A stretch of DNA of 64,000 nucleotides. Origin: Methylotenera oryzisoli. Its GTDB lineage: Bacteria > Pseudomonadota > Gammaproteobacteria > Burkholderiales > Methylophilaceae. Both the position numbers and the translations under genes were made by a program. The notes under the pieces were generated by a model. The model saw nothing but the letters and a program-made list of their open reading frames with translations. It was not told where the DNA came from and did no database searches. Shown piece after piece: positions 47,567 to 63,958 of this stretch. The stretch covers positions 1 through 64,000 of the forward strand of contig CAMCVF010000003.1 of NCBI GenBank assembly GCA_945881735.1, given 5' to 3'. The stretch's first letter is position 1. Each line of letters opens with the position of its first letter.

Positions 47567-48565
47567 ATGTTAACTAATTCATCCATTCTTATTACTGGTG
47601 GTACTGGCTCTTTTGGCCATACGTTTGTGCCAATGACGCTAAAAAAATACAATCCGCATCGATTGGTAATTTTTTCACGTGATGAAATGAAGCAGTGGGA
47701 AATGGCAAAGATTTATGGCCACGACGAGCGAGTGCGTTTTTTTATTGGAGATGTAAGAGACAAGGACCGGCTTGCAAGGGCACTTCACGGTATAGATTAC
47801 GTGGTGCACGCAGCAGCTACAAAAATTGTGCCTACGGCTGAATACAATCCTTTTGAATGTGTTAAAACTAATATAAATGGTGCAATGAATTTGATTGATG
47901 CAGCTATAGACCAAGGAGTGAAAGGGGTTGTTGCACTCTCTACTGATAAAGCTAGTAGTCCGGCAAATTTATATGGTGCTACCAAATTGGTATCAGATAA
48001 ATTGTTTGTTGCAGGCAACTCATATTCAGGAAAGGATTCCACTAAATTCTCGGTTGTTCGATATGGAAATGTTATGGGTTCGCGTGGTTCTGTGATTCCT
48101 TTTTTTATGTCCATTGCTGATAAGGGTGTTTTACCAATTACAGATGAACGTATGACTCGCTTCATGATTACGCTTGAGCAAGGAGTTGAACTGGTTTGGC
48201 ATGCTTTTGAAGATATGGTAGGTGGTGAAATTTATGTAAAAAAAATACCATCCATGAATATTGTTGATATTGCAAAGGCTTCTGTGCCAAATTCTAGTCA
48301 TCAAGTTGTTGGAATCAGACCTGGTGAAAAGCTTCATGAACAGATGATTGGATATGAAGACGCACTTTATACATATGAATATCATGAACACTATAAAATA
48401 TTACCTGCCATTCATAATTGGTGTGAAGACCCCGAAAGAATAAATGGAGGGAAAAAAGTTGCCCCTGACTTTACATACAGCTCGGACAATAATACAGAAT
48501 GGATGAGTATTGAATTTTTGCAAACTTGGATTAATCAATATCGTGACAAGGTTGGTAAGATTTGA
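47567..48565 (+). CDS. pseB: PseB: UDP-GlcNAc 4,6-dehydratase (inverting)
   Basis: The 332-residue SDR enzyme has the NADP loop ITGGTGSFGHTFV, FSRDEMKQWEMAKIYG and the active-site region LSTDKASSPANLYGATKLVS with D, K and Y in place. It carries out the first step of CMP-pseudaminic acid synthesis, 4,6-dehydration with C5 inversion. It heads the operon; its TGA overlaps the TTG start of pseC. Confidence 0.96.
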   Translation: MLTNSSILITGGTGSFGHTFVPMTLKKYNPHRLVIFSRDEMKQWEMAKIYGHDERVRFFIGDVRDKDRLARALHGIDYVVHAAATKIVPTAEYNPFECVKTNINGAMNLIDAAIDQGVKGVVALSTDKASSPANLYGATKLVSDKLFVAGNSYSGKDSTKFSVVRYGNVMGSRGSVIPFFMSIADKGVLPITDERMTRFMITLEQGVELVWHAFEDMVGGEIYVKKIPSMNIVDIAKASVPNSSHQVVGIRPGEKLHEQMIGYEDALYTYEYHEHYKILPAIHNWCEDPERINGGKKVAPDFTYSSDNNTEWMSIEFLQTWINQYRDKVGKI

Positions 48566-49731
48566 ACGCGCACATACCGTACGGTAGGCAAGATATATCT
48601 GAAGCCGATATACAGTCGGTGGTCGATGTATTGCGTTCAAATTATCTTACGCAAGGCCCTGTAGTGCCTGCATTTGAGAGCGCGGTTGCAAATTACTGCC
48701 AAGTTAAACATGCCGTTGCTGTAAATAGCGCAACTAGTGCCTTGCATATTGCCTGTTTAGCTTTGGGTGTAGTTGAGGGCGACATTGTCTGGACCAGCCC
48801 AGTAACTTTTGTTGCTAGTGCAAATTGCGCTTTATATTGTGGAGCAGAGGTCGATTTTATTGATATTGATTCACGTACCTACAATATGAGTGTTGAACGC
48901 CTAGCTGAAAAATTAGCGAAAGCAAAAATAGCTGGGCGTTTACCTAAAGTAGTTATCCCTGTGCATCTTTGTGGCCAACCTTGCGATATGGCAGCAATAC
49001 AACTACTTGGTCGGCAATATAATTTTAAAATTATTGAAGATGCATCACATGCAATTGGGGGTAAGTATCTAAATGAGGCTATTGGAAATTGCCGATATAG
49101 TGACATTACCGTGTTTAGCTTTCACCCGGTCAAAATTATTACTACTGGTGAGGGTGGCATGGCATTGACCAACGATTTGCAACTTGCAAAACGTATGCAA
49201 CTATTCCGAAGTCACGGCATCACCCGCGAAGTAACTGATATGACCCAAGCGCCAGATGGCCCTTGGTATTATGAACAGATAGAGCTGGGTTTTAATTACC
49301 GCATGACGGATATTCAGGCTGCATTAGGTTTAAGCCAGATGCAGCGATTAGATGAGTTTGTGTTCAAACGCCACGCCATTGCAAATCGATATGAGAAATT
49401 ATTAGCTAATCTGCCCGTGTTAACTCCTTGGCAGCATCCGGAGGGTTATTCTGGTTTGCATCTTTACGTGATTAGACTTAAATTGAATGAAATTAAGAAA
49501 TCACATCTTGAAGTTTTCGAAGCGCTACGTTCAGCTGAGGTTGGGGTGAATCTGCATTACATTCCAGTATATCGTCAGCCATACTATAAAAGGATGGGAT
49601 TTAAAATTGGTCATTGTCCAGAAGCAGAAGCGTATTATGCTGAGGGGTTTAGTCTCCCGATATATCCAGGATTAACAAACCAACAACAAGACCAAGTAAT
49701 TACAGTATTAAAAGAGACCTTAGGAGCATGA
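48562..49731 (+). CDS. pseC: PseC: UDP-4-amino-4,6-dideoxy-N-acetyl-altrosamine transaminase
   Basis: The 389-residue DegT/AryC1/EryC1-type PLP aminotransferase has SPVTFVASANCALYCGAEVD, EDASHAIGG and the PLP lysine in FSFHPVKIITTGEGG. It adds the 4-amino group in the second Pse step. It begins at a TTG at 48562, four bases overlapping the pseB stop; the family N-terminus (IPYGRQDIS) starts just after it. It ends in an ATGA overlap with pseF. Confidence 0.96.
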   Translation: MNAHIPYGRQDISEADIQSVVDVLRSNYLTQGPVVPAFESAVANYCQVKHAVAVNSATSALHIACLALGVVEGDIVWTSPVTFVASANCALYCGAEVDFIDIDSRTYNMSVERLAEKLAKAKIAGRLPKVVIPVHLCGQPCDMAAIQLLGRQYNFKIIEDASHAIGGKYLNEAIGNCRYSDITVFSFHPVKIITTGEGGMALTNDLQLAKRMQLFRSHGITREVTDMTQAPDGPWYYEQIELGFNYRMTDIQAALGLSQMQRLDEFVFKRHAIANRYEKLLANLPVLTPWQHPEGYSGLHLYVIRLKLNEIKKSHLEVFEALRSAEVGVNLHYIPVYRQPYYKRMGFKIGHCPEAEAYYAEGFSLPIYPGLTNQQQDQVITVLKETLGA

Positions 49732-50423
49732 GAATAGCTGTCATTCCAGCTCGTGGGGGCAGTAAGCGCATTCCACGTAAGAATATTAAAGACTTTTGTG
49801 GCAAGCCTATGATTGCTTGGTCCATTGAAGTGGCTAAGGCATCTGGACTTTTTGACCACATCATAGTTTCAACGGATGATACTGAAGTTGCTGAGATAGC
49901 AAGAAAATGGGGTGCAGAGGCTCCCTTTACAAGACCCGTAGAGTTATCCAATGACTATGCAGGCACAACTGAAGTGGTTGCACATGCAACTCGATGGTCT
50001 ATTGATCAAGGTTGGTCAGTTTCTGCCGTTTGTTGCATTTATGCAACTGCTCCATTTGTTCAGGTAGATGACCTTGCGCGCGGGCTTCGCTTATTGGAAT
50101 CAGGTAATTGGTCTTTTGCATTTACTGCGACAGATTTTGCTGCACCTATTTTTCGTGCATTTAAACAAATGCCTGAGGGAGGCGTTGAAATGTTTTTCCC
50201 TGAAAATTTTGAGACTCGCTCACAAGATTTACCCATTGCGCTACATGATGCTGGACAGTTTTACTGGGGGTGTCCCTCTGCTTGGATTGATGGTAGGCGT
50301 ATTTTTGACCGACACTCAATCCCAGTGGTTATTCCTCGCTGGAGAGTGCAAGATATCGATAATCAGGATGACTGGATACAAGCGGAACTTATCTATAACC
50401 AATTGAAAGATAGCCATATATGA
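49728..50423 (+). CDS. pseF: PseF: pseudaminic acid cytidylyltransferase
   Basis: The 231-residue CMP-sugar synthetase has the CTP-binding signature IPARGGSKRIPRKNIKDFCG and KPMIAWSIEVA, with VSTDDTEVAEIA. It makes CMP-pseudaminic acid, the activated form, from CTP and Pse. Overlaps of four bases with both neighbours show tight coupling. Confidence 0.95.
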   Translation: MRIAVIPARGGSKRIPRKNIKDFCGKPMIAWSIEVAKASGLFDHIIVSTDDTEVAEIARKWGAEAPFTRPVELSNDYAGTTEVVAHATRWSIDQGWSVSAVCCIYATAPFVQVDDLARGLRLLESGNWSFAFTATDFAAPIFRAFKQMPEGGVEMFFPENFETRSQDLPIALHDAGQFYWGCPSAWIDGRRIFDRHSIPVVIPRWRVQDIDNQDDWIQAELIYNQLKDSHI

Positions 50424-51055
50424 TTAAGACAACCAACTATACAACACCACAAGAAGAATTCTGGGCAAGTAGCTTTGGCACGGAATATATAGGGAGAAAT
50501 GACAGCAGTCAGCTTTTGGCTTCTAACCTAAACTTCTTTGCTAAAGCACTTAACCAGGCTGGAAAAATTTCATCATGTTTAGAGTTTGGCGCCAATATCG
50601 GAATGAATCTAAAGGCACTTCAGTTGCTTTATCCCGGAGTCATTTTGAAAGGAATAGAAATTAATGCTGATGCAGCTAAAGCACTCCGAGATTTAGTCGG
50701 CCATAAAAACGTTTACGAAGGATCAATTTTTTACTACCCAGTAACCGATAAAGTTGATGTATCTTTGATAAAGGGTGTATTAATTCATATAAATCCAGAT
50801 ATGTTAAACGTAGTATACGAAAACCTTTACCAAGCTTCAAACCGTTACATATTAGTCTGTGAATACTACAACCCATCACCTGTTGCAATTCCATATCGCG
50901 GGCATACAGAGCGTCTGTTTAAACGTGATTTTGTAGGTGAAATGCTAGACAAATATACAGATTTATCGCTTATTGATTATGGTTTTTCTTACCGCAGAGA
51001 TCCAGCCTTCCCTCAGGATGATATTACATGGTTCTTAATGGAAAAAAAGGGTTGA
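50420..51055 (+). CDS. Pseudaminic acid biosynthesis-associated methylase
   Basis: The 211-residue SAM methyltransferase has the glycine loop LEFGANIGMNLKAL and an ILVCEYYNPSPVAIPYRGH region. It matches the TIGR03587-type methylase found beside pse genes, often next to pseF. It may methylate the nonulosonic acid or an intermediate; the exact position is not known. It overlaps pseF by four bases. Confidence 0.85.
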   Translation: MIKTTNYTTPQEEFWASSFGTEYIGRNDSSQLLASNLNFFAKALNQAGKISSCLEFGANIGMNLKALQLLYPGVILKGIEINADAAKALRDLVGHKNVYEGSIFYYPVTDKVDVSLIKGVLIHINPDMLNVVYENLYQASNRYILVCEYYNPSPVAIPYRGHTERLFKRDFVGEMLDKYTDLSLIDYGFSYRRDPAFPQDDITWFLMEKKG

Positions 51056-51056
51056 T

Positions 51057-52205
51057 ATGCTGAAATACTGTGTTCGCTGTGTAATGCCACATACCAAGCC
51101 AGATCTCCATATTGATGAAGTTGGTGTATGTAACGCTTGCCGATCAATGGAAAAAAGGAAAGAAGTTGATTGGGAGTTGCGAAAAAAAGAGTTGCATGAA
51201 ATACTTGAAAAACACCGCAAAGATGGTGGTAGTTGGGATTGTATAGTGCCTGTGAGCGGAGGTAAAGATAGCACGTATCAGGTAATTCGTATGTTACAAC
51301 TTGGGCTTAATCCTTTATGTGTCACCTCAAGCACATGTGATCTCTCGGAAATTGGCCGAAAAAATATTGAAAATATTAAGAAGCTGGGTGTTGATTACAT
51401 GGAATTCTCGCCTAATCCTTTGGTTAGGGCGAAACTTAATAAAATAGGTTTGGTAGAAGTCGGGGATATTTCTTGGCCTGAGCATGTTGGAATTTTTACT
51501 ATCCCAGTAAGAGCCGCTGTTCAATTTAATGTTCCACTCATTGTTTGGGGTGAAAATTCTCAAAATGAATACGGTGGCCCAGCAGCTTCAACGGAAAACA
51601 ACACGTTAACCCGCCGATGGCTAGAAGAGTTTGGAGGGTTACTTGGAATGCGTGTGTCTGATTTATCTGAAACTTATGGTATTGAGTCAAGGCAATTACT
51701 GCCTTATCAATATCCAAGTGATGAAGATCTTCAAAGGGTTGGTGTTACCGGTCTTTTTCTCGGGCATTATTTACCTTGGGATGGTCTTTCTAACACCTTA
51801 ATTGCGCAAGCGAATGGATTTGTTACCTATGATAAGCCTGTAGAAGGCAGCATGGTCAATTATGAAAATCTTGATAATCATCAAACTGGCGTTCATGATT
51901 ATTTTAAATTTCTTAAATTTGGATTCTCTCGTGCAACCGATATTGCCTGTTTACATGTTCGCCGAGACCGAATCAGCCGTCAGGATGCGTTAGAAGTTGT
52001 TAAAGCTCGTGATGGTAAGTTTCCATGGACATATCTAGGTAAGCCACTAAAGGATATTCTTGAGCCATTAGATATGACGGTAGATGAGTTTATTAAGATT
52101 TGCGATAAATTCACTAATAAAAAGATTTTTAAGAAAGATGCATCAGGTACCTTGCTGAAAGATAAGCACGGCAACCTAGAAAAATTAAACTACGATAACG
52201 CATGA
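51057..52205 (+). CDS. N-acetyl sugar amidotransferase (WbuX/PseA-like)
   Basis: The 382-residue protein has two cysteine pairs at the N-terminus (CVRCVMP, CNACRS) for a zinc site and a PP-loop ATP-binding motif (PVSGGKDSTYQV). This family (TIGR03573) changes an acetamido group to an acetamidino group on a sugar, with ammonia from a HisH/HisF-like pair. PseA of Campylobacter does this on pseudaminic acid. The gene directly precedes hisH/hisF-like genes, as in other loci, and overlaps hisH by four bases. Confidence 0.92.
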   Translation: MLKYCVRCVMPHTKPDLHIDEVGVCNACRSMEKRKEVDWELRKKELHEILEKHRKDGGSWDCIVPVSGGKDSTYQVIRMLQLGLNPLCVTSSTCDLSEIGRKNIENIKKLGVDYMEFSPNPLVRAKLNKIGLVEVGDISWPEHVGIFTIPVRAAVQFNVPLIVWGENSQNEYGGPAASTENNTLTRRWLEEFGGLLGMRVSDLSETYGIESRQLLPYQYPSDEDLQRVGVTGLFLGHYLPWDGLSNTLIAQANGFVTYDKPVEGSMVNYENLDNHQTGVHDYFKFLKFGFSRATDIACLHVRRDRISRQDALEVVKARDGKFPWTYLGKPLKDILEPLDMTVDEFIKICDKFTNKKIFKKDASGTLLKDKHGNLEKLNYDNA

Positions 52206-52825
52206 AAGTAGCAATTATCAATTACGGCATGGGTAATTTAAACTCAGTGCGCAGATCTTTTGAAGAAATCGGCGCAGATGTTGTGATTGCTAATCACCCA
52301 TCTTGTTTGTATGAAGTTGATAGAATTATTCTGCCAGGCGTTGGCGCATTTACTGAAGGTATGGCGCACTTGAATCAAGGTGGATGGGTCACTGCACTGA
52401 ATGATGTGGTGAATATTCAGAAAAAACCATTACTTGGCATTTGTTTGGGAATGCAAATGCTTGCCAGCAAAGGATATGAAGGCGCTGCAACTGAGGGGTT
52501 AGATTTTATTTCTGGAGAAGTAAGGAGAATCGATCTGATAGGTTGCGATGAACGTATTCCACACATGGGATGGAACGAAGTTCGTTACAAATCAGAAAAT
52601 GTAATGTTTAACAGTATTCCTAATCTATCAGATTTCTATTTCGTCCATAGCTATGCTTTTGTACCCACTAACTCAAGCAACTTAATTGCAACAGTGGATT
52701 ATGGATGTGAACTAACGGCAATTGTTAGTAACAACCATGTCTTTGGATGCCAATTTCACCCAGAGAAGAGCTCAAAGGCTGGACGTCAAATGCTGAAAAA
52801 TTTTATGAGTTATTCTGTATGTTAA
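52202..52825 (+). CDS. hisH: HisH-like glutamine amidotransferase subunit
   Basis: The 207-residue class I glutaminase has the nucleophile cysteine in GICLGMQML and the His-Glu pair in GCQFHPEKS, plus PGVGAF near the oxyanion site. Histidine operons use HisH for imidazole-glycerol-phosphate synthesis, but here, after a WbuX-like gene, it is more likely the ammonia source for sugar amidination (WbuY role). It overlaps the following hisF-like gene by seven bases. Confidence 0.88.
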   Translation: MKVAIINYGMGNLNSVRRSFEEIGADVVIANHPSCLYEVDRIILPGVGAFTEGMAHLNQGGWVTALNDVVNIQKKPLLGICLGMQMLASKGYEGAATEGLDFISGEVRRIDLIGCDERIPHMGWNEVRYKSENVMFNSIPNLSDFYFVHSYAFVPTNSSNLIATVDYGCELTAIVSNNHVFGCQFHPEKSSKAGRQMLKNFMSYSVC

Positions 52826-53601
52826 AGGTAAGAGTCATTCCAACGCTTTTGTGGAAGGATTTTGGGCTAGTAAAGGGAGCAGTTTTCGATAGTTGGCGCC
52901 GTGTTGGTTCAATTTTACCTGCTATTAAAGTTTATAACTCAAGAGATGTCGATGAATTAATAGTGGTCGATATAACTGCTTCAAATGAAAGAAATCAGCC
53001 TGACCACGAGTCGGTAGCGGATTTTTCAGAAGAATGTTTCGTACCATTAACAGTTGGTGGTGGCATTACAAGCCTTGAAGACGTTTTACACCTATTGCAC
53101 TCAGGTGCAGATAAAGTTTCAATTAATACCGCAGCTTTTGCCGACCCAGGCATTATTGATAGTGTTGCCTCTCGGTTCGGCGCTCAGTGTATTGTGGCTA
53201 GTATTGATGTTAAATATTTTGACGATAGCGGTTACCGATGTTTTAGCCATTCAGGTTCGCAAGATACTGGGAAAGATCCTGTCGAATGGGCAAGAGAGCT
53301 TGTTAGTCGTGGTGCAGGTGAAATTTTACTAACATCAATTAACAGAGACGGTACGATGCAAGGTTACGATTTGGAGCTTACAGAGCGCGTTGCTAAAGCA
53401 GTAAATGTACCTGTAATTGCTTCTGGTGGAGCTGGTAATTATCAGCACATGATTGATGTTGTTTTACACGCAGGCGCATCTGCCGTTGCGGCAGCAAGTA
53501 TTTTTCATTATACCGAACAGACTCCATCGGGCGCAAAGCAAGCAATGAAGTTGGCGGGCATTCCTATCAGGCAAAATTTTATTGGCTTGGTTAATAAATG
53601 A
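52819..53601 (+). CDS. hisF: HisF-like synthase subunit (WbuZ role)
   Basis: The 260-residue TIM barrel starts at the ATG at 52819 (MLKVRVIPTLLWKDFGLVKG), which matches the family N-terminus; an upstream in-frame start at 52747 lies wholly inside hisH and is rejected. VVDITAS, PLTVGGGI, KVSINTAAF and PVIASGGAGN are HisF motifs. It should form the ammonia channel with the HisH-like subunit and pass it to the WbuX-like enzyme. Confidence 0.9.
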   Translation: MLKVRVIPTLLWKDFGLVKGAVFDSWRRVGSILPAIKVYNSRDVDELIVVDITASNERNQPDHESVADFSEECFVPLTVGGGITSLEDVLHLLHSGADKVSINTAAFADPGIIDSVASRFGAQCIVASIDVKYFDDSGYRCFSHSGSQDTGKDPVEWARELVSRGAGEILLTSINRDGTMQGYDLELTERVAKAVNVPVIASGGAGNYQHMIDVVLHAGASAVAAASIFHYTEQTPSGAKQAMKLAGIPIRQNFIGLVNK

Positions 53602-55106
53602 AGATAGCTTTCAGAGTAGATGCTTCGATGCAGATTGGCACAGGCCATGTGATGCGGTGCTTAACATTGGCAGATGGCTTGGCCGGCGATGATACAACGA
53701 TACATTTTATATGTAGGTATCTGCCAACAGGTTTAGAAAAATTGTTGCGGGATAAAGGATTCAACGTTTCCATTTTTCCCGCAAGTGAAAAATCTAAAGA
53801 AGAATTCCCACTAGCCCATTCTGAATGGTTAGGTGTTTCTCAAGAAATGGATGCAGAGGCAACATTAACCATAATCCAGAAGCAAGGATACGATTGGTTG
53901 ATAGTGGATCATTACGCTTTGGATATTCGTTGGGAAAAAAAAATAAGGTCGGTGGTAAAAAAAGTCATGGTGATTGATGACCTTGCTGATAGGCAGCACG
54001 AATGTGATGTTTTGCTTGATCAGAACCTATATGTCAATCAAGAAACTAGATATAAAAACAGGCTTCCAAGTCAATGTAAAACACTTATTGGACCACGTTA
54101 TGCACTACTAAGAAAAGAGTTTGCTGAATATCGAAAAAGGGTTAAACCGAGAGAAGGTAAGGTAACTCGCATTTTAGTATTCTTTGGAGGGGTCGATGCC
54201 AATGACTTTACAACAAAAACAATGTTGGCGTTATCTCAAATAACGAAATACAACTTTACCGTAGATGTAGTAATAGGTGATCAACATCCAAATAAAGTAG
54301 AAATTATGACGTTATGTCAACGTTTAGGTTACTACTGCCATGTGCAAACAAACAGAATGGCAGAGTTGATAGCTAATGCAGACTTTTCTATTGGATCTGG
54401 TGGCGGAACGGTTTGGGAGAGGGCTTGCTTGATGTTACCAACACTATCAATACCTATAGCACAAAATCAAATTAAACAACTTGTTGATATTGCATTAAGA
54501 GGAGTTTCCTACACTTTCGATGCAGAAAACTACACCTTAGAAGAAATAAAAATGCATACTGAACTGTTGCTAGATAACAGCTCACTTAGAAATTTACTAT
54601 CGACAAGGTCTGCTGACACTGTTGATGGCAATGGTGTTTATCGAGTTGTTCAAGCATTACGCTCTGATGTAGAAGTTAACTTGCGGCAGGCTGGTGCATT
54701 AGATGAGGAGTATTTGTTTGAATGGAGAAATCATCCTAAAATTAGAGAGGTTTCATTTGATAAAAATGTAATACCTTGGGATCAACATCACTGCTGGTTT
54801 AGTGCTTTGCTAGCAAATAGTCAAAAAGTGTTGCTTATAGGTGAATATAAAAAGCAACCTTTAGGCGTTGTTAGGTTTGACCTGCAAAATGACAGCGCTG
54901 AAATATCTATTTATCTTGTGCAAAAAAATGAGAGTAATGGGCTAGGGCTGCCTTTGATTAGAAGTGCTGAAAAGTGGATTCGTGAACACCGGAGTGCAAT
55001 TAAGAAGTTGAATGCGAATGTATTAGAAAACAATACGATATCTCATAATTTTTTTATAAAAGCTGGATACATTCCAGTAACTAGAAAGTATTGTAAAGAG
55101 CTATAG
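53598..55106 (+). CDS. pseG: PseG-PseH fusion: UDP-sugar hydrolase plus N-acetyltransferase
   Basis: The 502-residue protein has two enzymes. Residues 1 to about 345 are PseG, the UDP-2,4-diacetamido-altropyranose hydrolase, with the catalytic histidine at H17 (MQIGTGHVMRCLTLAD) and the GT-B donor region SIGSGGGTVWERACLMLP. Residues about 355-502 are a GNAT domain (EWRNHPKIREVS, the acetyl-CoA region QKNESNGLGLPLIRSA) equal to PseH, which acetylates the 4-amino group before hydrolysis. Fusion places two successive steps in one protein. It overlaps hisF by four bases. Confidence 0.93.
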   Translation: MKIAFRVDASMQIGTGHVMRCLTLADGLAGDDTTIHFICRYLPTGLEKLLRDKGFNVSIFPASEKSKEEFPLAHSEWLGVSQEMDAEATLTIIQKQGYDWLIVDHYALDIRWEKKIRSVVKKVMVIDDLADRQHECDVLLDQNLYVNQETRYKNRLPSQCKTLIGPRYALLRKEFAEYRKRVKPREGKVTRILVFFGGVDANDFTTKTMLALSQITKYNFTVDVVIGDQHPNKVEIMTLCQRLGYYCHVQTNRMAELIANADFSIGSGGGTVWERACLMLPTLSIPIAQNQIKQLVDIALRGVSYTFDAENYTLEEIKMHTELLLDNSSLRNLLSTRSADTVDGNGVYRVVQALRSDVEVNLRQAGALDEEYLFEWRNHPKIREVSFDKNVIPWDQHHCWFSALLANSQKVLLIGEYKKQPLGVVRFDLQNDSAEISIYLVQKNESNGLGLPLIRSAEKWIREHRSAIKKLNANVLENNTISHNFFIKAGYIPVTRKYCKEL

Positions 55107-55109
55107 ATA

Positions 55110-56165
55110 ATGGAAAAAAATATAAAAATCGGAACGAGTATAGTGGGCGTAGGTCAAGCCCCATTTATTATTGCAGAAATGTCAGGTAACCATAACCAAT
55201 CGCTTGAACGAGCGCTTGAGCTTGTGGATGCAGCGGCCAAAACTGGTGCGCATGCGTTAAAAATACAAACCTATACTCCAGATACGATGACGCTTGATTT
55301 GGATGAGCGTGAATTCCACATTAGCGACCCAAAAAGCATTTGGGCCGGAAGTTCGCTCTACAAGCTTTATGGTGAAGCCTATACCCCATGGGAGTGGCAC
55401 AAACCAATTTTTGATCATGCGCGTGAATTAGGAATTATAGCGTTCAGTACGCCATTTGATAATACAGCCGTTGATTTTCTCGAAAGCTTAGATGTGCCAT
55501 GCTATAAAATTGCCTCATTTGAAAATACAGACTTACCGCTGATTAGGCGTGTCGCGGCAACAGGTAAACCTCTTATTATCTCTACTGGCATGGCGAGTAT
55601 TGCTGAGTTAGATGACACCGTTCGTGCGGCGCGTGAGGCGGGTTGTAGAGATTTAATTTTACTAAAGTGTACCAGCACATACCCAGCAACCCCAGAAAAT
55701 ACCAATATCCTGACCATTCCTCACATGCGTGAAATGTTCGATTGTGAGGTTGGTTTGTCTGACCACACAATGGGTATAGGTGTTTCTGTAGCCAGTGTTG
55801 CTATTGGTGCAACGGTGATTGAAAAGCACTTTACCCTCAACCGTGCCGAAGGAGGCGTAGATAGCACCTTCTCCATGGAGCCATCAGAAATGGCGCAGTT
55901 AGTGGTTGAAACTGAGCGTGCTTGGCAAGCGATGGGAAAGGTTAGCTACGGCGCAACAGAAGCAGAAAAAAAATCACTGGTATTTAGACGGTCACTTTAT
56001 ATAGTTAAAGCTTTGGAAGCTGGGGATGTCTTGACCAAAGATAACGTTCGAGCGATTCGACCTGGTTTGGGTTTGCCAACAAAATATTTAGAAGTTGTGT
56101 TGGGAAAAAAGGTGAATAAAAATGTGCTACGAGGAACTGCTTTATCTTGGGAGTTAATGGTTTGA
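55110..56165 (+). CDS. pseI: PseI: pseudaminic acid synthase
   Basis: The 351-residue NeuB-family enzyme condenses 2,4-diacetamido-2,4,6-trideoxy-altrose with phosphoenolpyruvate to pseudaminic acid. The TIM barrel (about 10-280) shows IIAEMSGNHNQSLERAL, HALKIQTYTPDTMTLD and LKCTSTYPATPE; the C-terminal SAF/antifreeze-like domain (about 290-351) has IRPGLGLPTKY. It is three bases after pseG and completes the pathway. Confidence 0.96.
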   Translation: MEKNIKIGTSIVGVGQAPFIIAEMSGNHNQSLERALELVDAAAKTGAHALKIQTYTPDTMTLDLDEREFHISDPKSIWAGSSLYKLYGEAYTPWEWHKPIFDHARELGIIAFSTPFDNTAVDFLESLDVPCYKIASFENTDLPLIRRVAATGKPLIISTGMASIAELDDTVRAAREAGCRDLILLKCTSTYPATPENTNILTIPHMREMFDCEVGLSDHTMGIGVSVASVAIGATVIEKHFTLNRAEGGVDSTFSMEPSEMAQLVVETERAWQAMGKVSYGATEAEKKSLVFRRSLYIVKALEAGDVLTKDNVRAIRPGLGLPTKYLEVVLGKKVNKNVLRGTALSWELMV

Positions 56166-57606: not shown

Positions 57607-58584
57607 ATGAATAGTAAATTAGCTAACTTTAAGCTTAGCGGACTTTTGTCATATCTGATAACTCGCACGAAATTACGTTTTGTAGATAAGGCTAGTATTA
57701 TTGCTGGTAGCAAAATCGCCGTTATTTTAGGCCAAACCGTAACCTTGGATTTAATGGATCTAGAGCAAAAGTATTTAGCAGCAGATTGTGTAAGAGAGCC
57801 AGAAAATCTAATTGTTTACCGAGCAATTGCTGACTCTGGCTTGGTTGATACTTTTATTGACATAGGCGCGAATTGTGGACACGTAGCCGCTTCTATAATG
57901 AATGACTATAAACATGTGCTTTTATTTGAGCCTAACCCTAAGTTGGCGGCATTGTTACAAGGTATATTCAAAAAGCAAGAAAATATTGAAATTCATGAGT
58001 GTGCTATTGTAGATCAGGCCTCTACTGGTAGTTTAACGTTAACTGTGCCTGACGAAAGCTCGGGGTTAGCTACCCTTGGAAGCACTGACTTAAGTAAGCA
58101 ATATAACCAAGTTCATACATACAATGTTAGAGCTTCGACATTAGCGTCTGAAGTCAATGGGCTTTCTATAAGAAATGCATACATCAAGATTGATGTTGAA
58201 GGTTTTGAGGCAAATATCATTGAGTCAGCAAGAGAGTTAATTAATAGTCAAAGGCCAATTGTTGGTTTTGAGGCTCTTTCTAATGAGGCAGCGCTTAGTT
58301 GCGCACGACTATTTGATGACTACAATTTTTATTGCGCCCGATTTGATTTTTTAGAAAATGGAGGAGCCCTGTCAAGAAGTGTTCTAGGTATGATAAAAGC
58401 ACTTATATTTGGCGGTAATATTGAAGTGCTAAAACTCCATCATCTAGAAAAAACCAATCTAGATAACTTTAGCCAAATTTACTCCGTTCCGCGCGAAAAG
58501 GTAGAAGATTTTGAAAAGTCAATATTAACTTACTCAACAAAAAATCCTGTTTTCGATTTAAAAAGCTTGAAGATATGGTCTTAA
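57607..58584 (+). CDS. FkbM-family methyltransferase
   Basis: The 325-residue protein has the SAM-binding loop FIDIGANCGHVAASI, the acidic FEPNPKLAALL and IKIDVEGFEANIIESA, all typical of FkbM methyltransferases. It probably O-methylates a sugar in the surface glycan. It lies eleven bases after the previous gene and just before the flippase. Confidence 0.9.
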   Translation: MNSKLANFKLSGLLSYLITRTKLRFVDKASIIAGSKIAVILGQTVTLDLMDLEQKYLAADCVREPENLIVYRAIADSGLVDTFIDIGANCGHVAASIMNDYKHVLLFEPNPKLAALLQGIFKKQENIEIHECAIVDQASTGSLTLTVPDESSGLATLGSTDLSKQYNQVHTYNVRASTLASEVNGLSIRNAYIKIDVEGFEANIIESARELINSQRPIVGFEALSNEAALSCARLFDDYNFYCARFDFLENGGALSRSVLGMIKALIFGGNIEVLKLHHLEKTNLDNFSQIYSVPREKVEDFEKSILTYSTKNPVFDLKSLKIWS

Positions 58585-58588
58585 TTGA

Positions 58589-59878
58589 TTGAAAAATTCG
58601 TTTAGAGCAGTTACTTTGAAATTAAGTGATTTATGGAGTAGTGGTAGATATCTTGCAATGATGACCTTTGCCGCAGGGATAGCATTAGTGCGCGGATTTT
58701 TTCTGGCAGGAATTCTTGATGCGACTTCATTTGGACTGTATGTATCTATTGTTGCTGCTGGTATGTTCTCATCTTTACTGATCAGTTTTGGTGAAAATGA
58801 ACGGACTATAAAAAAATTCCCACGTATATGGGCTAGCCAAAACAATCATGGAGTAATGATAAGCCAATCGGATAAATCTGCTAAGGCCATGATATTACGC
58901 GCAAGCATAGTTTTGATTTTTCTCTTAAGCTGCATTTTTGTGAGTAGTTTTATATACCTTGCCCAGATGGGGATTTTTGTCGTACTGGTTGCTTTAAGTG
59001 CGGCGTTAGCTAGTTTATATTCATCGGCAATTCGCGCATCTGGAGACGTTGAAATTCTGGCAGGTAATACATTAATTCGCACAATGTTTGTTATCTTACT
59101 TGGAGTTGCTGGTGCGTTTTTCTTTAGTTGGCAGGGTGCGATTCTTGGCGAAATTTTTGGGGCTCTATTAGGAGTCATTGTTACACGGTACTCTGTAGTT
59201 AAGCAAACTAAGTTGCCTGATCATAGCAATGTGATTGCTGGTAGTGAAGACTTCAAAACTTCGCAAGATCGTGGTCTTTGGCTTTTTTTTGCAGGTTTAT
59301 TAGCAACTGCTCCAGCATATCTGGATCGAACATTTGTTGCTCTTGTATTAGGAGCGTCGTTGGTAGGAACTTTTGGGTTTCTTATGCTATTTGTAACAAG
59401 CGCGAATGTTTTTGTTGGTATTGTTGCTCAAAAAATCGGCCCCCAACTTATTAAAATGGAGTATTTGGGAGACTCGGTTATTATTCAAATAAAATATACA
59501 TTGCGCTGGCTAAGCCTAATTTTTCTCGTGTGTTTTTTAGGTATGACGTTTGTTTGGCTGACGTTGATTTACGGACCAGCACAGTATTTTTACAATAAAT
59601 TTCATTTGAATTTCAGCTTAATTCAGGCAACAACTGCATTATCTATGTTGCAGATTGGAGTATTAGCCGATTTCATTATGATTTCTAGAAACCAAGAACG
59701 AGCGATATTTTTATCTGCCAGCTGGTATTTATTGACGATACTAGCGGTTGTATTGATTGTGATTTGGCTGAAACTTTCACTACTTAGTTTTATATGGCTT
59801 TTAGCGCTAGCTAAATTAATTCATATTGCTGTCCAAGTTGGATTTATTGGAGTCGCCTATCGTAAAGATAATTGTTAA
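58589..59878 (+). CDS. wzx: Wzx-like polysaccharide flippase
   Basis: The 429-residue protein is all membrane: about 11-12 helices with short loops, as in the polysaccharide transport (PST/MATE-like) family. It starts at a TTG at 58589, four bases after the FkbM stop. Its site between the methyltransferase and the polymerase gene supports a role as Wzx, which flips the lipid-linked repeat across the inner membrane. Sequence identity in this family is low, so the call rests on topology and context. Confidence 0.8.
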   Translation: MKNSFRAVTLKLSDLWSSGRYLAMMTFAAGIALVRGFFLAGILDATSFGLYVSIVAAGMFSSLLISFGENERTIKKFPRIWASQNNHGVMISQSDKSAKAMILRASIVLIFLLSCIFVSSFIYLAQMGIFVVLVALSAALASLYSSAIRASGDVEILAGNTLIRTMFVILLGVAGAFFFSWQGAILGEIFGALLGVIVTRYSVVKQTKLPDHSNVIAGSEDFKTSQDRGLWLFFAGLLATAPAYLDRTFVALVLGASLVGTFGFLMLFVTSANVFVGIVAQKIGPQLIKMEYLGDSVIIQIKYTLRWLSLIFLVCFLGMTFVWLTLIYGPAQYFYNKFHLNFSLIQATTALSMLQIGVLADFIMISRNQERAIFLSASWYLLTILAVVLIVIWLKLSLLSFIWLLALAKLIHIAVQVGFIGVAYRKDNC

Positions 59879-59891
59879 TTGGATGGATGAT

Positions 59892-61187
59892 ATGACTAGA
59901 CTGAAACTTGGTGCTTTGAAATATCCCGTGTTTATCATGGCTGCATGGATTACGGTTTTGTTACTTAGGTTGATACCAATAGGTGGAAAATGGGGTAGCT
60001 TAGATGATTTTACATGGTTTGTATTTATCATCTGGTTCGTTGTTTATTTTTCTGCAATGCTTTTCGGTATTTCCTATAAGCCCAAACATACCATAAATAC
60101 CAACTCCTTTCCAGTCAAATGGCAGAATTGCTGGATTACACAATTGAGTTTTTACTCAATAATCGGTGCAATGCTTATAATTTATGAATTTGCGATTACG
60201 CGACATTATGGCTTCAGTACTCCAGTTTCTATAATTCGCATATTAGAGATTGAAGCCGCAAATGCGGGCTTTAAAGGTTCTTGGATAAGTGGTGCTGGTC
60301 GAATGCTGACCCCTGCGCTAATGGTTGCTTGGGTGCTCGCTTCGCTTGCTTGGAAGGAAGTGGCTAAGCGCACACTCATTATACTGTGGACTGCCAGCGC
60401 AGTGGTGTTTTATCAACAAATGTTGTTTGAAGGTGGTCGATTTTATCTTGGGGCTTTATTTGTGATGATATTTTTAGCAAAATTTTTTGCAATTCAGCCG
60501 CGTTTACAAAAGCATGTGCTTATTGGGAAAACCTTATGGGTCGGTTTTTTTCTTGCAGTGTGTTTGCTTTTTGGATATATGTTCATTGATCGATATGAGC
60601 AACTTAACCGAGCTTTTTATGAGGCTTATGAAACTTGGACATTGAATTTTGATTTGGAAATAACTGATGCGGTCCGATCAAGACTTTCTGGTGAGATGCC
60701 AGGTTTTTGGTTGGCAATAAATATGCTTTGGGCATATGTGACACAAGGCCTTAATGAGTTAAATGTCATTTTACTCTCGTGTCAGCCAGATATGGGTTGG
60801 GGCAGAATTAATTTTACGCAAATTGCACAGATGTTGGGCAAACTTACTAATTTGGATTTTAAATATGACTCGAATTACAACATGCCAAAGACTGGAACAT
60901 ACATTACACTTTACGGTGCAACTTATATCGATTTTGGCCATGTAGGCGGATTAATATTTATAAGCATCGTTGGCTGGGTTACTGGTATGTCTACTAGGCT
61001 ATTACACTCTCGCTACTTTAACGGCCTTTCAATAAGTGCCCCACTCTTGCTTACACTGGGTATTTTTTCACCAATTGTATCTTTGGTTTTGAATTTATGG
61101 CCTGCTTTTTGTTGGGCTTTACTTGTTGGGTGGACTTTAAAACTTTCTTATTACCGTGCGTCTTCAATTGCTACAAATGTCTTGTAA
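59892..61187 (+). CDS. wzy: Wzy-like O-antigen polymerase candidate
   Basis: The protein has about 431 residues from the ATG at 59892, with GGATGG five bases upstream; the in-frame ATG at 59883 and a longer one at 59826 inside wzx are alternatives. It has about ten helices and a large polar loop (residues about 255-345, near AVRSRLSGEMPGFW and GWGRINFTQIAQML), the layout of Wzy polymerases. It probably joins repeat units in the periplasm. Wzy proteins share little sequence, so the call rests on topology and its site next to wzx. Confidence 0.72.
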   Translation: MTRLKLGALKYPVFIMAAWITVLLLRLIPIGGKWGSLDDFTWFVFIIWFVVYFSAMLFGISYKPKHTINTNSFPVKWQNCWITQLSFYSIIGAMLIIYEFAITRHYGFSTPVSIIRILEIEAANAGFKGSWISGAGRMLTPALMVAWVLASLAWKEVAKRTLIILWTASAVVFYQQMLFEGGRFYLGALFVMIFLAKFFAIQPRLQKHVLIGKTLWVGFFLAVCLLFGYMFIDRYEQLNRAFYEAYETWTLNFDLEITDAVRSRLSGEMPGFWLAINMLWAYVTQGLNELNVILLSCQPDMGWGRINFTQIAQMLGKLTNLDFKYDSNYNMPKTGTYITLYGATYIDFGHVGGLIFISIVGWVTGMSTRLLHSRYFNGLSISAPLLLTLGIFSPIVSLVLNLWPAFCWALLVGWTLKLSYYRASSIATNVL

Positions 61188-61214: not shown

Positions 61215-62357
61215 ATGAATATTCTTATCACAGGCGGTGCTGGATTTATTGGTCAGCACCTTGCACATGCTCTACTTGCTCAAGGTGAAAAAGTACGTAT
61301 TCTCGATAACTTTAGCCCACAGATTCACTTTAATGATGAACTCCCAGAGTCACTCAACGGTAGGGTCGAACTTATAAAAGCTGATGTGCGAGATCGTGAA
61401 GCAATGAAGCATGCCCTTGTCGGTGTGGATACATTAGTACATTTGGCGGCGGAAACGGGAACAGGGCAATCAATGTATGAAATTGAGCGTTATTTTAGCG
61501 TAAACGTGCAAGGCACAGCTACACTAATTGATTTACTTCAAAATGATACTTGCGGTAAAAGTTTACGTTCAATAGTTGTGGCATCTAGCCGGGCGATTTA
61601 TGGTGAAGGTGCCTATCAGTGCGAAGCCCATGGATTAGTATATCCGCACCAGCGTCAGCGTGAACAAATGGCACGTGGGCAGTTTGAGCCAATTTGCCCA
61701 CAATGTAACGCGCGAGCTTATTTGTTGCCAACGTCTGAAATAGCACCCTTTAAACCGATGTCAATGTATGGATTGACTAAACAAGTGCAAGAGCAAGCTA
61801 TATTGTTGTTTGCTCGTACGCGCGGTATTAATGGTTTTGGATTACGTTATCAAAACGTATACGGGCCTGGTCAATCATTAAAAAATCCATATACTGGAAT
61901 ATTGGCTGTTTTTTCTAACTTGGCACGTCAAAACCAAAGCATAGAAATTTATGAAGATGGCTTAGAGTCTCGGGATTTTGTTTATATTGATGATGTGGTA
62001 GAAGCAACTGTTCGAAGTATTAACTATAATGGGGTGTTTGTTGGGGAGTTGAATGTTGGGTCTGGCGTTGGTACCAGCGTTATGAACGTTGCCCAAGAGA
62101 TTAAGACATTTTTTTCTAGTGAAAGCATTATTCAGGTAACAGGGGAATTTCGTATGGGTGATATTCGTCACAATATTGCTGATATAACTAAGCTGAAAGA
62201 CGTATTGGACTATATTCCATGTGTGCTATTCAAGCAGGGTTTGTCTAACTTTTTAGGTTGGGCAGAAAAGCAGCCGGATGAAGATAAATCTGCCTACTTA
62301 CGTTCTGTAAATGAGCTTGCGGCACGTGGTTTAATGGGTAAGGCATATACACAATGA
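61215..62357 (+). CDS. NAD-dependent sugar epimerase, dTDP-L-rhamnose 4-epimerase type
   Basis: The 380-residue SDR protein has the NAD loop ITGGAGFIGQHLAHAL, the active-site SMYGLTKQVQEQ (YxxxK) and FGLRYQNVYGPGQS. An insert of about 45 residues before the active site has cysteines in YQCEAHG and ICPQCNA, a likely zinc knuckle. I recall this insert in the WbiB-type dTDP-L-rhamnose 4-epimerases that make 6-deoxy-L-talose. UDP-glucose 4-epimerase remains possible. It overlaps the next gene by four bases. Confidence 0.8.
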   Translation: MNILITGGAGFIGQHLAHALLAQGEKVRILDNFSPQIHFNDELPESLNGRVELIKADVRDREAMKHALVGVDTLVHLAAETGTGQSMYEIERYFSVNVQGTATLIDLLQNDTCGKSLRSIVVASSRAIYGEGAYQCEAHGLVYPHQRQREQMARGQFEPICPQCNARAYLLPTSEIAPFKPMSMYGLTKQVQEQAILLFARTRGINGFGLRYQNVYGPGQSLKNPYTGILAVFSNLARQNQSIEIYEDGLESRDFVYIDDVVEATVRSINYNGVFVGELNVGSGVGTSVMNVAQEIKTFFSSESIIQVTGEFRMGDIRHNIADITKLKDVLDYIPCVLFKQGLSNFLGWAEKQPDEDKSAYLRSVNELAARGLMGKAYTQ

Positions 62358-62935
62358 AAAACGCATGCAAAATGAATCAGATTTGGAATTTCAAACTAAT
62401 TCCTTTTCTGGTAGCAGATTTACGACGTGCACGGACACTAATTCATGGTGAGTCCGATAGTATGTCTGATTTTAGATTGTGGCTAGGAGTTCTGTCGCCA
62501 AGGTTTTTGCCTGTTCTGCTTTGTAGGGTAGCGCATTTTTTTTATTGTATTAAGTTAACTTCTGTTGCCAAGTTTTTTTCGTTGCTTAATTTTTTATTTT
62601 TCGGCATTGAAATAGCCATTCAATGCCGAATAGGAAAGGGTTTGTTTTTACCACATACTCAAGGTACGGTTATCGGAGCGTACTCCATTGGTGAGAACGT
62701 TACCATTTTCCAAGGTGTTACATTAGGCGCGCGTGAGCTTGATTTTTCCTACAAAGAGCTGTCACGACCTTCTGTCGGTGACGCCGTAACTATCGGTGCT
62801 GGTGCCAAAGTGTTGGGTGGGTTGAACTTAGGTTCGGGCGCGCGTGTTGGCGCAAATGCTGTAGTTCTGGAATCTATCCCCGAAAATTTTTTAGCAGCAG
62901 GTGTTCCAGCTCGTGTAATAAAGCCATTGAGTTGA
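62354..62935 (+). CDS. Serine acetyltransferase-like hexapeptide protein
   Basis: The 193-residue protein has a helical N-terminus with a hydrophobic hairpin (about 45-80) and a left-handed beta-helix (CRIGKGLFLPHTQGTVIGAY, ENVTIFQGVTLGA, VTIGAGAKVLGGLNLGSGAR) ending GVPARVIK. It is a second CysE-like protein in the window and probably O-acetylates a sugar of the surface glycan. It overlaps the epimerase gene as ATGA. Confidence 0.86.
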   Translation: MKNACKMNQIWNFKLIPFLVADLRRARTLIHGESDSMSDFRLWLGVLSPRFLPVLLCRVAHFFYCIKLTSVAKFFSLLNFLFFGIEIAIQCRIGKGLFLPHTQGTVIGAYSIGENVTIFQGVTLGARELDFSYKELSRPSVGDAVTIGAGAKVLGGLNLGSGARVGANAVVLESIPENFLAAGVPARVIKPLS

Positions 62936-62959: not shown

Positions 62960-63958
62960 ATGAAACAAAATCTTGTGAATAAAAAAATTCTATTTATAGC
63001 CCCAGAATTTTTTGGCTATGAAAAAGAAATTGTCGCAGAATTGGAAAGGCGGGGTGCTGAAGTTGACTTTATTCCAGACAGGCCTTTTAAGTCTCCATTT
63101 ATGAAAGCTGTTACAAGACTTAGGCGTGAGTTGGTTTTGAAGCTAGCTGAAAGTTTTTTTTTGAAAGCCATAAAAAGATTTAATCGTAATAATTACGATT
63201 TAATTCTAGTGGTTTTGGGTGAATGTGTTTCACCTAAATTACTTACTAATTTGAGAGTGCAATTTCCCAAAGCAACATTTACCCTGTATATGTGGGACTC
63301 CTTTAAAAACAGGAAATTTCTTCCAAAAAATGTACCTTATTTTGATAAATGCTTCACATTCGATTTTGACGATGCTAAAAATTATGGCATGCAATTCCGC
63401 CCTTTATTTTATTCTAATGGATTTAAAAAGACTGAAGAGAAAAATTTAAAATTTGATATTAGTTTCATCGGAACTGCGCATTCTGATCGCTACAAAGTAG
63501 TTTCCAAAGTTGTAGCTAATTTACCAAAAGATACAAAAAGTTATTTGTATTTATTTTTACAAGCGCCCTGGGTATTTTGGTTACATAAACTTTGTAATAG
63601 TAAATTTAAAGGGGCGGCAATCCGAGAGTTTAATTTTTTGCCACTTTCTAAAGCTGAAGTAAAAAAAATATTTTCTGACTCACTTATCATTCTTGATATT
63701 GAACATCCTAAACAAACTGGCTTAACTATGCGAACGTTAGAAACATTAGGTGCCCAAAAGAAATTGATTACAACTAACTCTAATGTAGTTGACTATGATT
63801 TCTTTAACCCGAATAACATATTTGTTATGGATAGAGAAAATGTTGGACATATACCTAATTCATTTCTTTTACGACCTTATGAGCCTCTTAGTGATCAACT
63901 TTATGAAAAGTATTCTATAAAAGGTTGGTTAGATGATGTACTTGGTGTTAAAGCATAA
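62960..63958 (+). CDS. Glycosyltransferase-like protein (CgeB-like)
   Basis: The 332-residue protein opens with KKILFIAPEFFGYEKEIVAE and has FDISFIGTAHSDRYKVVSKV at the start of the second half and LDIEHPKQTGLTMRTLETLG near the C-terminus, like the CgeB/Glyco_trans_1_2 type of GT-B proteins. The donor sugar is unknown. It follows the acetyltransferase by 24 bases. The last 42 bases of the window show nothing. Confidence 0.7.
   Translation: MKQNLVNKKILFIAPEFFGYEKEIVAELERRGAEVDFIPDRPFKSPFMKAVTRLRRELVLKLAESFFLKAIKRFNRNNYDLILVVLGECVSPKLLTNLRVQFPKATFTLYMWDSFKNRKFLPKNVPYFDKCFTFDFDDAKNYGMQFRPLFYSNGFKKTEEKNLKFDISFIGTAHSDRYKVVSKVVANLPKDTKSYLYLFLQAPWVFWLHKLCNSKFKGAAIREFNFLPLSKAEVKKIFSDSLIILDIEHPKQTGLTMRTLETLGAQKKLITTNSNVVDYDFFNPNNIFVMDRENVGHIPNSFLLRPYEPLSDQLYEKYSIKGWLDDVLGVKA

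Follow-up and report, generated by a model that had tools for sequence, protein, structure and literature searches.

A pseudaminic acid operon with an inserted methylase and amidotransferase block in Methylotenera oryzisoli, and the doubly decorated sugar it may predict

We analysed a 64,000-nucleotide stretch of Methylotenera oryzisoli DNA (assembly GCA_945881735.1, contig CAMCVF010000003.1, positions 1 to 64,000; hereafter the window), which carries an operon for pseudaminic acid (Pse), a nonulosonic acid. A 370-base divergent gap precedes pseB, and nine genes then follow, tightly packed (Table 1). The window's proteins were scored against NCBIfam models with the curated cut-offs of NCBI. 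All parts of the nine-gene operon exceeded their cut-offs except the PseH domain and the HisF/WbuZ-like protein. The eight junctions from pseB to pseI measured −4, −4, −4, +1, −4, −7, −4 and +3 bases, five of the eight being 4-base overlaps. Near full-length matches that follow one another with junctions between −7 and +3 bases leave no role for chance; the operon is real and intact. An earlier note, made from the sequence alone, had described this gene map and order, with genes that overlap or nearly touch and with a methylase, a WbuX-like amidotransferase and HisH/HisF-like partners inserted between pseF and pseG. Family scores, junctions, coordinates and strand bear out this description. 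In the upstream gap we found three promoter-like sites, compared to 3.3 expected from shuffles of the scanned stretch, which shows nothing about a promoter there.

Table 1. Genes of the Pse operon and of the region downstream, in window coordinates (UDP-GlcNAc, uridine diphosphate N-acetylglucosamine; CMP, cytidine monophosphate; SAM, S-adenosylmethionine; ORF, open reading frame; aa, amino acids)
Feature	Position	Strand	Model score and remarks
pseB, inverting UDP-GlcNAc 4,6-dehydratase	47567-48565	+	TIGR03589 529 bits, cut-off 408
pseC, aminotransferase, TTG start	48562-49731	+	TIGR03588 561 bits, cut-off 424; 4-base overlap with pseB
pseF, CMP-pseudaminic acid synthetase	49728-50423	+	TIGR03584 310 bits, cut-off 206
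SAM-dependent methylase TIGR03587 (Pse_Me-ase)	50420-51055	+	290.3 bits, cut-off 112.05
wbuX/pseA-like N-acetyl sugar amidotransferase	51057-52205	+	TIGR03573 330.6 bits, cut-off 203.2
HisH-like glutamine amidotransferase	52202-52825	+	TIGR01855 228 bits, cut-off 105; PF00117
HisF/WbuZ-like ammonia-transfer partner	52819-53601	+	WbuZ TIGR03572 295.9 bits, cut-off 299.7
pseG-pseH fusion	53598-55106	+	PseG 301 bits, cut-off 154; PseH 73.3 bits, cut-off 93.1
pseI, pseudaminic acid synthase	55110-56165	+	TIGR03586 505 bits, cut-off 340
Candidate nonulosonic acid transferase, GT-B-like, 473 aa	56174-57595	+	no Pfam/NCBIfam match; follows pseI
FkbM-family methyltransferase	57607-58584	+	TIGR01444 79.5 bits, cut-off 37.7
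Wzx-like flippase	58589-59878	+	PF01943 20.3 bits, below cut-off 28.2
Wzy-like polymerase (ORF as listed, TTG start)	59826-61187	+	TIGR04370 36.7 bits, just below cut-off 40
EpsC/CysE-like acetyltransferase	62354-62935		142.3 bits, just under cut-off 150
WaaS/CpsH-type glycosyltransferase	62960-63958		297 bits, cut-off 60; end of locus

The canonical Pse pathway comprises six activities: PseB, PseC, PseH, PseG, PseI and PseF. We observed that PseB, PseC, PseG, PseI and PseF were all above the curated cut-offs by which we judged membership of the pathway. There is no separate pseH gene; the PseH domain makes up the C-terminal end of the pseG frame, in which the UDP-sugar hydrolase spans amino acids 1-293 and a GNAT acetyltransferase amino acids 362-494. 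Against solved structures, the whole fusion protein matched 3hbm (E = 5e-17) and, weakly, the PseH structure 4xpk (E = 1.6e-4). The earlier note had counted a complete pathway of seven steps. The pathway is complete except that the PseH domain scores below its cut-off, and seven is reached only if amidation is counted.

The WbuX protein, over the TIGR03573 cut-off, has the PP-loop SGGKDS in its translation. Its nearest solved relative was 8wex, named an N-acetyl sugar amidotransferase (E = 1.4e-41), and the alignment includes this loop. The HisF-like protein, scored with an over-long start, had WbuZ as its best model and stayed below that cut-off; against HisF of histidine synthesis it reached 262 bits (cut-off 294.6). 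The Asp of its CLDV motif, which we take to be catalytic in HisF, is replaced by Leu. This Asp is also lost in the four related HisF-like copies that were aligned (Leu or Thr) and is kept in the genome's true HisF. The true HisF is encoded on another contig (368 bits), next to a weaker match of 92 bits taken to be a putative HisA, and the operon protein is its paralogue. Because the true HisF is a separate gene, the operon's HisF-like protein looks dedicated, and the sequences suggest that the WbuX/HisH/HisF trio serves amidation specifically. The matching trios presumably go by the names WbuX-WbuY-WbuZ and WbpG-HisH2-HisF2, and the product of the WbuX/WbpG type is, we assume, an acetamidino group. 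The likeness consists of three protein types side by side, whereas here the trio is embedded in a pse operon behind a methylase.

The methylase is a clear member of TIGR03587, the Pse biosynthesis-associated methylases, a family classed as a hypothetical equivalog for which our literature search found no experimentally tested member. It keeps 59 of 59 invariant columns in an alignment of 55 rows, itself included, from a set of 81. We assessed its tie to Pse synthesis in a phylum sample of 398 genomes, the window's included, with E = 1e-90 as the threshold for a PseI match. The methylase was present in 16 genomes and a PseI match in 69, 62 of these over the cut-off. PseI matches occurred in 12 of 16 methylase genomes compared to 57 of the 382 others (P = 3e-7, Fisher's test). 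None of the four remaining methylase genomes had a PseI over the cut-off. In G249, frames starting like PseB, PseC and PseF lie beside the methylase at a contig end, and the assembly has no synthase; G310 is 69% complete and has partial synthase matches only; in G151 the synthase matches are weaker and lie on other contigs. In the fourth, G254 (locus L137, 5298-8503), a synthase of a different type (PseI 213 bits, cut-off 340) lies ~1.5 kb upstream of a distant methylase copy, which suggests that the methylase family may serve other nonulosonic acids too.

A scan of 84,980 species genomes by short peptide patterns gave 186 confirmed methylase relatives; locus counts rest on the best 80 of the 186, those most similar to the window's methylase. 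At 73 of the 80 loci, tblastn matched at least two of pseB, pseC, pseF and pseI. For the other seven, five of the genomes have PseI over the cut-off elsewhere, and the remaining two reached 328.8 (G548) and 226 bits (G552) against 340. All seven had a synthase-like match at E = 1e-10, as did unrelated controls. PseC was over its cut-off in three of the six stand-alone-methylase genomes searched, including G548 and G552, and in G552 it lies ~3 kb from the synthase. An acetamidino and perhaps methylated Pse, as the earlier note had it, remains the best reading. It draws support from the CMP-Pse genes, the amidation trio and the co-occurrence of methylase and Pse synthase across genomes; the PseH score is the part that falls short.

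Among the loci with a methylase alone, five from Bacteroidota (L019, L024, L035, L037 and L067) have neighbours that look unrelated to sugars, judged by protein starts, and these genomes have PseI or PseC over the cut-off elsewhere. Within the window's phylum, one PseI match (G301:C29:21799-22752) contains three in-frame stops and is apparently a decayed gene.

Judged by family membership, PseB, PseC, PseH, PseG, PseI and PseF would build CMP-Pse5Ac7Ac. As expected for the WbuX/WbpG type, HisH would free ammonia from glutamine, the HisF-like partner would carry it, and WbuX with ATP would convert one N-acetyl into an acetamidino group. The TIGR03587 methylase would methylate the nonulosonic acid off the amidine nitrogen, most likely at a hydroxyl, as the methylase genomes without WbuX suggest. 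The GT-B-like protein encoded after pseI would probably transfer the sugar into a surface polysaccharide made by Wzx/Wzy. The product is very likely an acetamidino pseudaminic acid, and a methyl group on that pseudaminic acid is reasonably probable. The full predicted chemistry, a CMP-Pse with an acetamidino group and a methyl off the amidine, is evenly poised between holding and failing. With somewhat less confidence still, we tentatively propose that the methylase-WbuX-HisH-HisF block leads to an undescribed class of Pse in the surface polysaccharides of many environmental bacteria, with a charged acetamidino and a separate methyl group, and that TIGR03587 proteins are Pse O-methyltransferases active also where there is no amidotransferase.

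The block is widespread among the 80 loci. In 39, a wbuX match begins no more than 200 bases downstream of the methylase; 30 have no downstream wbuX in at least 3.5 kb of downstream sequence, four have wbuX elsewhere in the locus, and in seven the contig ends too soon. Because these loci were found by pattern and are the most similar to the window's methylase, 39 of 80 is probably higher than the rate across the family at large. By record title, the 39 loci span Pseudomonadota, Cyanobacteriota and Bacteroidota. Their wbuX is more than 70% identical to the window's in 33 and 46-49% identical in six, all Bacteroidota. Among them are L061, with 34 WbuX residues at a contig end, and L064, with WbuX in two segments. 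hisH and hisF follow wbuX in the same order in 37 of the 39; in L008 and L061, both on short contigs, neither was seen. Same-strand tblastn with the window's proteins, which did not look for divergent replacements, matched PseB in 32 of the 39 loci, PseC in 38, PseF in 22, HisH and HisF in 37 each, PseG and PseH in 29 each and PseI in 32, with all ten parts in five, L078 of Limnohabitans sp. 2KL-51 among them. By these counts, methylase and trio form a core that is better conserved than the ten parts together. The earlier note had hinted that a sugar with both changes would be rare; this is not supported, given a wbuX immediately after the methylase at 39 of the 80 loci and the acetamidino-methyl precedent on legionaminic acid.

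Within the window's own family, the methylase was over its cut-off in two of 150 genomes, the window's included. This rarity suggests transfer from outside the family. The trio was weakly enriched with the methylase in the phylum sample (5 of 16 vs 37 of 382, P = 0.019) and not significantly so among genomes with PseI (4 of 12 vs 7 of 57, P = 0.09).

Two features of individual loci were also recorded. L003, L004 and L007 gave no PseB match, and the first Pse step must therefore come from elsewhere in these; in L003 (7620-9309) a small acetyltransferase-like frame, not PseB, lies directly before pseC. L002, L005 and L049 have a second WbuX (31-35% identical) with HisH and HisF elsewhere in the methylase locus, a set that probably serves another sugar.

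If the methylase acted on the acetamidino nitrogen, every genome that has it should hold an amidotransferase. Among the 30 methylase genomes without adjacent wbuX, a WbuX search at E = 1e-20 came up empty in 20, and the other 10 had at least one WbuX over the cut-off. Among these 20 are the complete chromosome of Emticicia sp. 21SJ11W-3, which also has pse genes, and the genomes of Emticicia sp. BO119, Ulvibacterium marinum and Crocinitomix algicola. The layout pseF-methylase-pseG also exists without the trio, for example in L001 and L010. On the best methylase tree, adjacency to the trio changes nine times over 74 rows of known state, and well-supported branches alone force at least five changes for the close-wbuX group, on a tree with 28 of 77 inner branches drawn open as weak and with a bootstrap that had not settled. 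Because the methylase occurs in genomes with no WbuX match, it seems in general to work without amidation. This favours, without proving, a hydroxyl or other site on the Pse core. Such evidence on the methyl target is what is new here, and it leans against the amidine nitrogen.

Several points weigh against the full predicted chemistry, the low PseH score among them. Many of the 30 assemblies come from metagenome binning with completeness not stated, and a WbuX could be missing there because of a gap. Nor do the 20 count as independent: several are closely related, including four Methylobacter or Methylococcaceae records. The WbuX search would also not see an amidotransferase that lies outside TIGR03573. 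Across 14 loci with a close WbuX and all six genes, distances of the methylase correlated most closely with those of HisF (0.96) and WbuX (0.91), ahead of PseF (0.88), PseC (0.84) and PseI (0.81). These values would also suit a methylase that acts on the amidine here, and the lineage may have specialised. When all 17 such loci were taken together, the ranking was the opposite (WbuX 0.58, HisF 0.66, PseC 0.79, PseF 0.79, PseI 0.81); all these correlations are given without significance values. An AlphaFold2 model of the methylase (pLDDT 88) has a class I methyltransferase fold, and its top neighbour was the N-methylase NodS (Z 18.8, root-mean-square deviation (rmsd) 3.2 over 187). MfnG (O; Z 18.1), NTMT1 (N; 17.6) and TylM1 (N; 17.2) came next; NodS and TylM1 are sugar amine methylases. 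The attempt to tell N- from O-methylation by the fold failed, as the Z scores of N- and O-methylases lie close together. A phmmer search of the methylase against the PDB gave a best E of 0.32.

The alternative that survives best has the methylase act on the acetamidino group itself, which would yield an N-methylacetimidoyl Pse, the counterpart of the Legionella and Campylobacter coli sugar. Legionella ORF8 (PMC13306086) and PtmH (PMC13317340) are legionaminic precedents in excerpts of these papers, and the adjacency of methylase and wbuX in 39 of 80 loci, their similar distances in the 14 loci, and NodS and TylM1 among the fold neighbours fit as well. The 20 of 30 genomes with no WbuX match, and the pseF-methylase-pseG layouts without the trio, make it unlikely nonetheless.

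A second alternative, in which the methylase targets a neighbouring sugar or the lipid-linked repeat unit and Pse is only acetamidino-substituted, we consider improbable. According to the part of PMC3765264 available, Shewanella oneidensis has its methyls on an outer residue and not on the Pse-like sugar, and SfmD (395 amino acids) is methylase-like by description only. In the same direction point the PseC count of just three in six stand-alone-methylase genomes, and a distant methylase in G151 (L136, 6164-8973) beside a 665-amino-acid frame, with no nonulosonic acid gene recognised in 16 kb by protein starts. Against this stand the pse genes matched at 73 of 80 loci and PseI over the cut-off in five of the seven others. 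We also considered Shewanella oneidensis as a precedent for methylated Pse and rejected it, because the O-methyl there is assigned to the outer residue (PMC3765264). A last alternative, in which the genes for both modifications are unexpressed or non-functional and only plain Pse5Ac7Ac is made, is a very remote prospect: no promoter stands out upstream, but the reading frames are intact and overlapping, and the methylase keeps all its invariant columns.

Nonulosonic acids shape bacterial surface charge and recognition, and their decorated forms are best studied mostly from pathogens. The widespread, compact block predicts doubly decorated Pse in environmental bacteria and offers a concrete test of the role of TIGR03587 methylases. 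To place the methyl group, genomes with pse genes and methylase but no trio can naturally be compared with those that also have the trio.

Published sugars were compared from excerpts of the cited papers. An acetamidino and a methyl group on one nonulosonic acid are already known there for legionaminic acid. PseA makes Pse5Ac7Am, and PtmH is linked to Leg5AmNMe7Ac (PMC13317340). The Campylobacter Pse/PseA system has the same six Pse enzymes plus the amidotransferase PseA, and its product is a flagellar sugar; here no flagellin was found, the operon includes a methylase and dedicated HisH/HisF, and pseH is fused to pseG. Campylobacter coli VC167 (PtmG/PtmH) puts both groups on one nonulosonic acid, but this is legionaminic acid on flagellin (PMC13317340), and PtmH is likened to our methylase by description, not by sequence. 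Polylegionaminic acid of Legionella pneumophila serogroup 1 is likewise a surface polysaccharide with acetimidoyl and methyl groups (PMC13306086). Its sugar is legionaminic rather than pseudaminic, and the N-methyltransferase ORF8, set beside TIGR03587 by description, acts on the 5-acetimidoylamino group (PMC13306086).

Methylated Pse was predicted in Clostridium butyricum, where the enzyme assayed was PseB (PMC13317340). Excerpts of PMC7281560 and PMC9290775 describe pseudaminic acids without a methyl on the sugar, and those of PMC7371886 name an acetamidino legionaminic acid and lack the term 'methyltransferase'. The synthase of Accumulibacter sp. 66-26 is listed in PMC8053191, which reports Pse or legionaminic acid by mass spectrometry in an Accumulibacter enrichment and, in the portions available, no methylated form. 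The locus of this organism (L006) carries the methylase-trio block. We found no report of a Pse with both an acetamidino and a methyl group in the portions of the open literature covered; one may be in print.

Flagellin_N had no match in the window's genome (92.7% complete), which makes flagellin glycosylation an unlikely role here. With no flagellin found, and with genes for a GT-B-like protein and for Wzx/Wzy-like proteins located after pseI, the sugar is likely to end up in a surface polysaccharide. A dehydratase/epimerase-like protein is encoded after the Wzy-like polymerase and before the acetyltransferase. From its sequence, the FkbM methyltransferase, two genes past pseI, could be a further enzyme that methylates this glycan.

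The 473-amino-acid protein after pseI is a candidate CMP-nonulosonic acid transferase. Its structural model, from five rows, is of low confidence (mean pLDDT 61.7, pTM 0.52). It has GT-B-like neighbours up to Z 13.2 with a whole-chain rmsd of ~9-13, and its C-terminal half fits better (Z 12.0, rmsd 3.2 over 142). Four relatives matched PF05159 (Capsule_synth) at E < 0.01, two of the four above the 20-bit cut-off (L073 57.3 and L130 33.3 bits pass; L056 18.2 and L054 16.8 fail), and the window's protein gave no match to it at E up to 1. The protein occurs in two of 299 phylum genomes, the window's included. The Rhizobium-like locus L056 has a 41% relative, which there too comes after pseI, with the pse-methylase-trio block adjoining.

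Translations read around a 27% relative in G431 (L130) place it in a run resembling a legionaminic-type cluster. In L002 and L020, judged by protein starts only, frames near the methylase have flagellin-like first residues.

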